43,146 bases of DNA from Deltaproteobacteria bacterium (GTDB lineage: Bacteria > Desulfobacterota > Syntrophobacteria > Syntrophobacterales > Syntrophobacteraceae), in contig JAKAJS010000094.1 in assembly GCA_021813685.1 (NCBI GenBank), positions 1-43,146 on the forward strand, read 5' to 3'. The notes below the pieces were generated by a model that saw only the letters and a list, made by a program, of their open reading frames with translations, was not told the DNA's origin and did not search any database. The first letter of the stretch is position 1; each line of letters begins with the position of its first letter. The translations under genes and the position numbers were made by a program. Shown here in pieces: positions 5,560 to 7,968 of this stretch.

Positions 5560-7315
5560 CAGATTCGACCCGGTAACCATTGAGATACTCTGGCGAAGGC
5601 TTATCTCCATCGTCGACGAGGCGGATGGCTCCGTTGCCCGAACCGCCTTCTCGAGCCTTTTGCGCGATGCCCACGATTATACCTGCATGTTTACCGATCA
5701 GTACGGAAGGGAACTGGCCCAGGGCACCTTCGCTACTCCCGGCCAGTCGGGGGCGATGGCCCTGGGAATAAAGAAGCTCGCGGCGGCATTTCCAAAGGAG
5801 AGCTACAGGCCGGGGGATGTCTTCATCACGAACGACCCCTGGGCCCTGGCGGGGCATTTGAACGATATATGCGTGATGAGCCCCGTCTTCCACCGCGACC
5901 GGCTGGTCGCCTTCACCGCCTGCGTGTTTCATCACTCGGACATCGGCGGCCGGGTTTCCTCCGATAACCACGACGTCTTTGAAGACGGCTTGTTCATCCC
6001 ATTTGTCAAGCTCTACGACCGGGGGGTTCTCAATGAAGCCGTCCTGGAGATGATCCGGTGGAATGTGCGCACGCCCTACGAGGTGATCGGAGATATCCGC
6101 TCCCAGATAGCCGCAAACCACATCTGTTCGGAGAAAATCCGGCGGCTCATGGAGGAAAACGATCTCGATACGCTCGATGAGCTGGCCGAGGAAATTCTCG
6201 GCCGCACCGAGCGGAGCATGCGGGAGGCAATAGCCGCGGTGCCCGACGGCCTCTACCGCGCCGAAGGGATTGTCGAGCAGGTGGAGGGAAAAGACGATGT
6301 CGTGATCAAGGCGGCCGTTCGGGTGCAGGGGAATTCGATCGAGGTCGACCTCGACGGCTCTTCCCCCCAGGTCGAGTGGGGAGGAAACGTCGTCTACAAC
6401 TTCTCCTACGCCTATGTCTTCATGGCCATGAAGAGCATGTTCGACCCCGATATTCCCAATAACGACGGGTGCGCGGCACCCGTTACGCTCAAAGCGCCCG
6501 AAGGGAGCGTCGTCAACTGCCGATTCCCGGCGGCGGTAGCCGCCCGGATGCAAATCGGCCATTTTCTAACCGAAATCATCTACCGCGCCATGGCCGAGGT
6601 GCTGCCTCACAGGACCCTTGCGGGCAGCGGGGGAACTCCGGCATCGATGAACGTCTTTTACGGCAGGCGAAACGACGGCCGTCCGTTCCACTCGGTCATA
6701 ATCGGGGGCGGGGGCATGGGGGCAAGCTCTCGAAGCGACGGCGAGTACGTCTACATCTTCCCCGCCAACGGGGCCAATACGCCAGTCGAAATCTTTGAAA
6801 GCGACACGCCGCTTCTCATCGAAAAGCGGGAGCTTTCCACGGATTCCGGCGGACCGGGAAAGTTCAAGGGAGGATTGGGCCGAAGGCTCGTCTTTCGAGT
6901 CCCGGAGGACTCCCGGGCGCCTTCTGCGGTCAAACTGGGCATCCAGGCGGGAAGGTACCGCTATCCGCCCGAGGGGCTTTTCGGAGGGCTGGCGGGAGCA
7001 AAGGCGAAATTCCTGGTAAACGGAAAACCCGGAAACCCCTACGGCCTCACCCGCCTGCACCCGGGAGATGAGGTTATCCTGGATGCTGCCGGGGGAGGGG
7101 GCTACGGCCCGCCTCTGGAGCGCGATGCAGAATCGGTTGCAGCCGATGTGCTCGACGGCTATGTGAGCCCGGAGCGCGCCCGGGAAGCCTATGGCGTGGT
7201 GCTGGATGCCTCGGCCGGAGGGGTCGATGTGGAGGCGACCCGCGCCTTACGGGACGGCCTGCGACCAGGAAATCCCCCCAACCCCCCTTTGCCAAAGGGG
7301 GGCGATCGGGCCTAG
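5552..7315 (+). CDS. Hydantoinase B family protein (HyuB-like) with repeat-derived C-terminal tail
   Basis: A 587-aa HyuB-family subunit, partner of the preceding HyuA. It begins MGDRFDPVTIEILWRRL, typical of the family, and carries the metal-site region around NDPWALAGHLNDI and HHSDIGG, later GGGGMGASSRSDG, and LHPGDEVILDAAGGGGYGPP near the end. ATG 5552 follows GGGGAGAGG and overlaps the hyuA stop, so I reject the longer in-frame reading from 5513. The family sequence seems to finish around RALRDGLRP. The last residues, through PPNPPLPKGGDRA and the stop codon, lie wholly inside a 50-bp repeat (7269-7318) that is duplicated at the end of the next gene, so the natural stop was probably replaced by repeat insertion. 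The protein is otherwise intact. Confidence 0.9.
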   Translation: MGDRFDPVTIEILWRRLISIVDEADGSVARTAFSSLLRDAHDYTCMFTDQYGRELAQGTFATPGQSGAMALGIKKLAAAFPKESYRPGDVFITNDPWALAGHLNDICVMSPVFHRDRLVAFTACVFHHSDIGGRVSSDNHDVFEDGLFIPFVKLYDRGVLNEAVLEMIRWNVRTPYEVIGDIRSQIAANHICSEKIRRLMEENDLDTLDELAEEILGRTERSMREAIAAVPDGLYRAEGIVEQVEGKDDVVIKAAVRVQGNSIEVDLDGSSPQVEWGGNVVYNFSYAYVFMAMKSMFDPDIPNNDGCAAPVTLKAPEGSVVNCRFPAAVAARMQIGHFLTEIIYRAMAEVLPHRTLAGSGGTPASMNVFYGRRNDGRPFHSVIIGGGGMGASSRSDGEYVYIFPANGANTPVEIFESDTPLLIEKRELSTDSGGPGKFKGGLGRRLVFRVPEDSRAPSAVKLGIQAGRYRYPPEGLFGGLAGAKAKFLVNGKPGNPYGLTRLHPGDEVILDAAGGGGYGPPLERDAESVAADVLDGYVSPERAREAYGVVLDASAGGVDVEATRALRDGLRPGNPPNPPLPKGGDRA

Positions 7316-7318
7316 CCG
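7269..7318 (+). repeat. Palindromic repeat R1 (CCCCCCTTTGCCAAAGGGGGG type), 50-bp identical copy of R3
   Basis: Starts GAAATCCCCCC, contains the palindrome CCCCCCTTTGCCAAAGGGGGG, and ends CGATCGGGCCTAGCCG. All 50 bases are identical to 7819-7868. The TAG inside it is the stop codon of HyuB. It faces the inverted copy R2 at 7384-7419. In many deltaproteobacterial genomes related sequences translate as NPPNPPLxKGG peptides at gene ends. Confidence 0.9.
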
Positions 7319-7383
7319 GGGGGGCATGGATTGTTTTTCCCGGTGGGTATGGCTCATTCCCTTCGGTTGGGCGCAGCTCATCT

Positions 7384-7419
7384 CCCCCCCCTTTGAAAAA
7401 GGGGGGCGGGGGGGATTTC
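7384..7419 (-). repeat. Palindromic repeat R2, inverted partner of R1
   Basis: Read on the minus strand it starts GAAATCCCCCCCGCCCCCC and continues into TTTTTCAAAGGGGGGG, the same layout as R1 with small changes. R1 and R2 point at each other across about 65 bases. R2 ends about 54 bases before the DUF559 start codon. Confidence 0.8.
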
Positions 7420-7472
7420 AATCAGGCTCCGCCATTCGCAAAGAACTGCCCGATACACAGGGGGATATTACA

Positions 7473-7865
7473 ATGCTCGCCTACAAAAGCACCCTCAAAC
7501 CGCTCGCAAGAGAATTGCGCAAGAAAATGACCGATGCGGAACAGGCCATCTGGTCCAGGGTGCGGCGAAAGCAGATCAATGGCCGGATTTTTTATCGCCA
7601 GAAAGCCATAGGAAGCTATATAGTCGATTTCTACTGTCCGAGCGCAAAGCTGGTCGTTGAGCTTGATGGCGGACAGCATTATACATCTGAGGGCAAGGCA
7701 AAAGATCGGGTCCGAGATAAGGCACTTGCAGATTTGGGGCTGTCGGTGCTCAGGTTTTCGGATACGGATGTTCTTAAAAACATGGACGGAGTCTTGTCAG
7801 TGTTGTACGAAAAGACACGAAATCCCCCCAACCCCCCTTTGCCAAAGGGGGGCGATCGGGCCTAG
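7473..7865 (+). CDS. DUF559 family protein, Vsr-like endonuclease fold, inside a repeat-bounded cassette
   Basis: A 130-aa protein of the DUF559 family, predicted to have the very-short-patch-repair/PD-(D/E)xK nuclease fold. Key residues are Asp52 in IVDFYC, Glu63 and Asp65 in VVELDGG, and His69, preceded by the family's N-terminal helix (ELRKKMTDAEQAIWSRVR) and RQKAIGSYI. ATG 7473 follows AGGGGG by eight bases; the frame stays open upstream but that part has no family likeness. The fold ends near residue 115. The tail NPPNPPLPKGGDRA and stop are encoded by repeat R3. Two repeat pairs flank it (R1/R2 left, R3/R4 right), and it interrupts a catabolic gene cluster with which it shares no evident function. 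Its cellular role is unknown; a link to spread of the flanking repeats is my inference. Confidence 0.88.
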   Translation: MLAYKSTLKPLARELRKKMTDAEQAIWSRVRRKQINGRIFYRQKAIGSYIVDFYCPSAKLVVELDGGQHYTSEGKAKDRVRDKALADLGLSVLRFSDTDVLKNMDGVLSVLYEKTRNPPNPPLPKGGDRA

Positions 7866-7868
7866 CCG
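7819..7868 (+). repeat. Palindromic repeat R3, exact 50-bp duplicate of R1
   Basis: Identical to 7269-7318 base for base, offset 550. It supplies the last 14 codons and the TAG stop of the DUF559 gene in the same frame as R1 does for HyuB. Confidence 0.9.
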
Positions 7869-7920
7869 TTGGGGTGAATCGCTTCGCGCTCCTGGGGATC
7901 GATCGAGCCGAGGGGGTATG

Positions 7921-7968
7921 CTCAAGTCCCCCTTTGCAACAGGGGGATTTAGGGGGATTTTGAAATTT
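7921..7968 (-). repeat. Palindromic repeat R4, inverted partner of R3
   Basis: On the minus strand it reads AAATTTCAAAATCCCCCTAAATCCCCC, then TGTTGCAAAGGGGGACTTGAG. This is the more usual form of the repeat family (AAATCCCCCTAAATCCCCC). It faces R3 across about 50 bases and ends 46 bases before the start of the next gene. Confidence 0.8.

Follow-up and report, generated by a model that had tools for sequence, protein, structure and literature searches.

DUF559 nuclease genes bracketed by inverted pyrimidine-arm palindromes: candidate minimal mobile elements and a possible source of BoxC-type repeats

Can the gene for a small nuclease scatter palindromic repeats through bacterial genomes? The question is raised by positions 7269-7968 of the window, by which we mean the whole 43,146-nt stretch analyzed here (contig C283 of a 5.06-Mb metagenome-assembled genome (MAG), 97% complete with 6% contamination), where hyuB and a 3-hydroxyacyl-CoA dehydrogenase gene enclose a gene of the DUF559 family that is accompanied by two palindromic units on each side (R1 and R2 upstream, R3 and R4 downstream; Table 1). 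A preliminary description of this DNA had proposed that the block is a repeat-dispersing element. We consider it fairly probable that a DUF559 gene together with its nearest inverted palindromes, here R2 and R3, constitutes a compact mobile element whose nuclease drives the spread of the palindromes. Directly seen are the bracketing of DUF559 genes, the orientation of the bracketing units, genome-wide repeats, covariation of protein and palindrome, homology limited to the unit, and empty sites.

Bracketing was measured in three sets of loci. Among 80 named multi-phylum DUF559 loci picked by protein similarity alone, a hairpin with a stem of at least 8 was present in both 250-bp flanks at 43 of 76, compared with 2 of 304 windows drawn at random from the contigs of these loci, and among DUF559 genes gathered from a search of relatives (98 genomes) and a phylum sample (395 genomes), 74/112 were bracketed versus 7/336 control windows. 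The sets were then merged, noticed identical loci removed, the hairpins restricted to those with pyrimidine arms and a stem of at least 8, and real open reading frames on the same contigs used as controls; both flanks were occupied at 105 of 181 DUF559 loci and at none of 377 control genes (p=3e-64), and at least one flank at 168/181 and 36/377, respectively. The enrichment of the repeat near DUF559 genes, on which the preliminary description had staked its proposal in advance, is borne out by these counts, and it is near certain that the association is specific, oriented and shared across phyla. DUF559 elements occur in many bacterial phyla and in one archaeal MAG, the gene being patchily present (98/395 genomes of the phylum sample), and C-rich palindromes also lie close to DUF559 genes in Sinorhizobium, Azospirillum and Neisseria.

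The two facing repeat pairs described previously are present in the window (R1/R2 and R3/R4) but do not represent the general layout, which instead comprises the nearest unit on each side, its hairpin pointing outward and its GGGGATTT/AAATCCCC head toward the gene, as in R2 and R3. The gene-side head is a G-run upstream and a C-run downstream, the median distance to the conserved core being 34 bp on the upstream and 29 bp on the downstream side, and a third run is found on the gene side of 118 of 138 upstream and 125 of 154 downstream hairpins. The ends therefore read pyrimidine arm, purine arm, third run (Y-R-R'), an order that should in principle be able to fold as an intrastrand triplex.

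Copies of the palindrome were counted genome-wide by pattern searches. The 5.06-Mb window genome holds 71 forward matches to CCCCCTTTNNNNAAGGGGG and none to the reversed control pattern. Its gene-less units often come in pairs, most of them separated by about 50 bp, in which two end types are recognizable, AAATCCCCCTAAAT[hairpin]CTTGGGTTCGAATC and AAATCCCCCCTGC[hairpin]GAATCCGGTCC; the heads face inward in 15 of 19 resolved pairs. Such a pair is a DUF559 bracket with a short spacer in place of the gene. Outside one end type of these miniature elements (genome G000, e.g. L006, L011-L013, L153, L159 and L178) stands CTTGGGTTCGAATCACCCGA, a sequence resembling a tRNA T-arm. G005, a member of the same genus, lacks both CCCCCTTTNNNNAAGGGGG and a DUF559 gene and carries the mirror palindrome GGGGGAANNNNTTTCCCCC 102 times; its mirror palindromes are a separate repeat family.

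Palindrome type follows protein type. Proteins with an F-Y-R-Q or F-F-R-Q motif are accompanied by TT-ended arms in 95/95 cases and F-R-R-Q proteins by CC-ended arms in 68/71. Arm type changes 8 times on a tree built from 194 proteins (identical rows among them), versus 58 with shuffled labels. Nested co-switches, such as those of the F-F-R-Q clade and L116, are seen in this tree: the F-F-R-Q clade with TT arms sits inside the R/CC part, and one F-K protein with CC arms inside the Y/TT part. An independent-pairs test of residue against arm type yielded 2-3 pairs, a number too small for significance, and each of them was concordant or neutral. Palindrome load also differs with the presence of the gene, as CCCTCNCCC-type palindromes have a median of 7 per genome with DUF559 and 0 without, and at least 5 copies are found in 60/98 genomes with and 36/297 without DUF559 (p=1e-20, uncorrected for relatedness). 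For C5TTT palindromes, at least 10 copies occur in 7/8 genomes with FYRQ-type DUF559 versus 10/90, again uncorrected for relatedness.

Several observations bear on movement of the unit. Loci whose DUF559 DNA is at least 78% identical form 48 non-redundant pairs, in 36 of which nothing homologous was detected outside the unit, although the pairs are not all independent and one F-F-R-Q group supplies about a third of the unit-limited ones; in pairs aligned in detail, homology mostly stops near the outer hairpin edge. Genome G007 has several decayed DUF559 copies with palindromes at each, and multiple copies are also present in G284 and G323. In Sinorhizobium, the same inverted CCCTCTCCCC pair of about 150 bp flanks the gene on either side, and a portion of this pair is found again in 93 plasmid records; the repeat may belong with the rhizobial RIME elements such as RIME1. 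At the orthologous site of Shinella the flanks adjoin directly and the 733-bp block of repeat pair, DUF559 gene and repeat pair is missing, a difference that does not distinguish insertion from deletion. A miniature element of the window genome lies within a 372-bp intergene (L002:1391-1764), whose counterparts in five congeners are 104-266 bp long and palindrome-free. Terminal inverted repeats and empty sites, as in classical insertion sequences and miniature inverted-repeat transposable elements, are thus both found. At the orthologous intergene of G006 (L275) we also observed another long inverted repeat, TTCACCACGAAGCGCACGAAGAACACGAAGAG...CTTCGTGTTCTTCGGTGCGCTTCG.

Other sites were less informative. 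No informative orthologue was found for the miniature locus L012, and the gene was present at every orthologous site found on Azospirillum plasmids, with no empty site among them. The hyuB locus was considered as an empty site and set aside: HyuB orthologues of G001 and G007 (80% identical) end normally and are followed by other genes, so that insertion at hyuB is only suggestive.

A relation to a known repeat class is seen in Escherichia coli. BoxC/triplex repeats have been known in this species since the 1990s; hundreds of genomes contain them, and they mark places of instability. A 2015 study reportedly left their mechanism and evolutionary origin unanswered. BoxC, PIT and TMECO have been described as intrastrand-triplex motifs of E. 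coli with no associated enzyme, at sites of high local genome variability near which, according to the authors, mobility functions were never found (PMC4666352). In E. coli K-12, the 3' end of the DUF559 gene ycjD runs into a BoxC-like hairpin that is followed by a full BoxC. Between sapF and fabI (L179, L180 and L181), ycjD and BoxC stand in place of the eefRABCD efflux operon. This was rejected as a clean empty site, as ycjD-less strains have the 6-kb eef operon there, which makes it a replacement. The eef operon has been inferred to be lost at least twice at this site (PMC12817139), and these losses could be palindrome-associated rearrangements. For the enzyme behind the spread of the repeat class to which BoxC belongs, DUF559 is at present the strongest candidate.

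The window gene, the sole DUF559 gene of its genome, was assigned by its match to PF04480 (E=7e-34). Its predicted structure (predicted local distance difference test, pLDDT, 93.7) matches 3hrl, a DUF559 protein (TMt 0.85), 3r3p (0.75) and 1vsr (0.51), and a relation to the homing endonuclease I-Bth0305I is detectable in sequence (E=1.4e-4) and by Foldseek (2e-4). Columns invariant in 26 homologues, among them E23, D52, E63, D65, H69 and D78, are intact, and we assume from family membership a catalytic role for the acidic and histidine columns. A search of a defence library returned only domain-level matches to other proteins, the best being DpdF (E=3e-10 over 56 residues). The Caulobacter DUF559 protein VsrA is needed for the DNA damage response upon deletion of a solitary cytosine methyltransferase (PMC12907096), and DUF559 members can therefore act on DNA in vivo.

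A mechanism may be proposed from these features. Most likely, the DUF559 protein would recognize the palindromic ends, with a specificity tied to the residue in its F-x-R-Q motif. It would then cut or nick ends extruded as single-stranded or hairpin/triplex DNA, and host repair or replication would copy the unit into new intergenic places, the gene-less miniature versions with paired ends about 50 bp apart being copied likewise. Of the repeat-dispersing element put forward in the preliminary description, the bracketing and the empty sites (Sinorhizobium/Shinella, and the miniature element against five congeners) have held up; that the DUF559 protein catalyzes the spreading is something we infer, and judge reasonably likely.

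Three other explanations compete for parts of these data. DUF559 may be a host-serving nuclease that processes hairpins, triplexes or mismatches at repeats during repair, replication or recombination, its flanks being its own regulatory or target sites and the repeats having been spread by another agent. The Vsr-like fold and the link of VsrA to mismatch repair and DNA damage (PMC12907096) are consistent with such a role, as is the variability at BoxC/triplex sites (PMC4666352), which a cutting enzyme would cause. We nevertheless regard it as unlikely, as homology runs from hairpin to hairpin only, at unrelated positions, several decayed copies per genome and empty sites are found, gene-less copies share the inward layout, and the patchy distribution of the gene looks mobile rather than housekeeping. 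More doubtful still is the notion of repeats as hot spots of insertion or recombination, between which homing-endonuclease-like DUF559 genes land with no recognition of the palindromes. The relationship to the EDxHD enzyme I-Bth0305I would fit this, and repeats are found in DUF559-less genomes too, but passive landing does not account for arm types that track DUF559 subtype across phyla, including the nested co-switches of the F-F-R-Q clade and L116, for a fixed inward orientation at short distances, or for the lack of bracketing at all 377 other genes. Ordinary intergenic hairpins such as terminators, or chance in G/C-rich sequence, can be refuted as a general explanation and retain a negligible probability: hairpins are indeed common near gene ends, and 63/336 control windows had some stem of at least 8 in one flank, but pyrimidine-arm hairpins on both sides were all but absent from controls matched by contig and gene context, upstream units are almost as frequent as downstream ones with a defined orientation, and shuffled and reversed-pattern controls were near zero.

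The proposal of a mobile DUF559 element must in turn be set against several points that weigh on it. Recognition, cutting and copying of the ends by the DUF559 unit are inferred from sequence. At the Shinella and congener sites, where orthologous DNA is 72-82% identical, the junctions are not sharp enough to show a target-site duplication or to fix an insertion to the base. BoxC at ycjD lies on the 3' side only, and the miniature elements and DUF559-flanking units of the window genome belong to related, non-identical subfamilies. Palindrome-rich genomes without DUF559 exist (the 36/297 noted above; G072 has 54 copies), for which gene loss or another driver is needed. Finally, the connection of VsrA with cytosine methylation (PMC12907096) points to another role for DUF559, in one lineage at least.

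Table 1. Palindromic units and DUF559 gene of the window.
Feature	Position	Strand	Description
R1	7269..7318	+	head GAAATCCCCCCAA, hairpin CCCCCCTTTGCCAAAGGGGGG (7282-7302), tail CGATCGGGCCTAGCCG; extra outer unit, head pointing off the gene
R2	7383..7419	-	hairpin CCCCCCTTTGAAAAAGGGGGG (7386-7406), head CGGGGGGGATTTC toward the gene; canonical upstream unit
DUF559 gene	7473..7865	+	PF04480, 130 residues, Vsr/EDxHD-like PD-(D/E)XK fold
R3	7819..7868	+	head GAAATCCCCCCAA toward the gene, hairpin (7832-7852), tail; canonical downstream unit
R4	7927..7963 (about)	-	hairpin TCCCCCTTTGCAACAGGGGGA (7927-7947), head TTTAGGGGGATTTT; extra outer unit, second end type (AAATCCCCCTAAAT[...])

All four copies in the window are of palindrome type C5TTT-N-AAAG5. 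Repeat comparison confirmed the reported identity of R1 and R3 at 50 of 50 bases with an offset of 550, and a repeat search lengthens this match to 59 nt at 95%. In inverted orientation, R1 is matched by R2 over 37 nt (86%) and less well by R4 over 28 nt (79%). With up to 3 mismatches, the core hairpin occurs 6 times in the window, on both strands, and in none of 100 shuffles, and an Rfam search of the region matched no family. Two proteins are partly written in these repeats. Over 7269-7315, R1 encodes the C-terminus of HyuB (NPPNPPLPKGGDRA), replacing the end seen in the G001 and G007 orthologues, and the DUF559 reading frame, whose start was placed by homologues at ATG 7473 rather than 7191, stops within R3, giving it a repeat-encoded tail, NPPNPPLPKGG. 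Similar C-terminal tails, SPSPQPSPPSGERG or HPPLTPPIKGG, were observed in other DUF559 proteins (e.g. L018, L020, L026 and L035); they look like a translated downstream repeat and may provide a handy signature for protein databases.

A literature search returned no report tying DUF559 to these repeats, within a coverage that excluded subscription papers and most preprints, and the link is likely new. As it ties a single gene to palindromes, it makes the origin of BoxC/triplex repeats directly testable, with ycjD of E. coli K-12. If true, it would assign a role to a large DUF family and bring a new class of enzyme into the machinery shaping bacterial genomes.

Among known systems, the parallel with RAYT transposases and repetitive extragenic palindromic (REP) sequences drawn by the preliminary description proved apt: the DUF559 gene is flanked by two inverted palindromes, gene-less inverted doublets are dispersed in the genome (71 copies and 19 pairs in the window genome), and palindrome type tracks the protein. 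RAYT itself was considered as the driver in the window genome and rejected, its three Y1_Tnp (PF01797) genes being located elsewhere and none bracketed by such palindromes. RAYT is an HUH tyrosine transposase of PF01797, whereas the window protein belongs to PF04480 with a PD-(D/E)XK Vsr-like fold, and REPs are GTAG-headed, whereas DUF559 units have AAATCCCC / CCCTCACC-type runs as heads and pyrimidine arms; as both enzyme family and head differ, the DUF559 element works like RAYT/REP but is no member of it. With BoxC/PIT/TMECO, the units share the Y-R-R' layout (CCCTCNCCC..GGGNGAGGG..GGGNGAGGG) and an intergenic, dispersed distribution, and the gene-less pairs of the window genome resemble the inverted type A and type B pairs of E. 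coli TMECO, although the C5TTT repeats of the window make up a different sequence class with that layout. Vsr belongs to a common fold family (1vsr), but DUF559 is associated with palindromic repeats, and no DNA methyltransferase was seen adjoining the gene within the window, where hyuB and the dehydrogenase gene are its immediate neighbors. The EDxHD homing endonuclease I-Bth0305I (3r3p), a nuclease that spreads its own gene, is related in sequence and fold; the PDB files 3r3p as a mobile intron protein, whereas DUF559 elements stand free, are bounded by palindromes and have derivatives that lack the gene. Set beside these systems, DUF559 elements are somewhat likely to represent a widespread minimal class of mobile element, a Vsr-like nuclease between triplex-type ends, that is the source of BoxC/PIT-type and related repeats and a second, unrelated solution to the job that RAYT performs for REPs.
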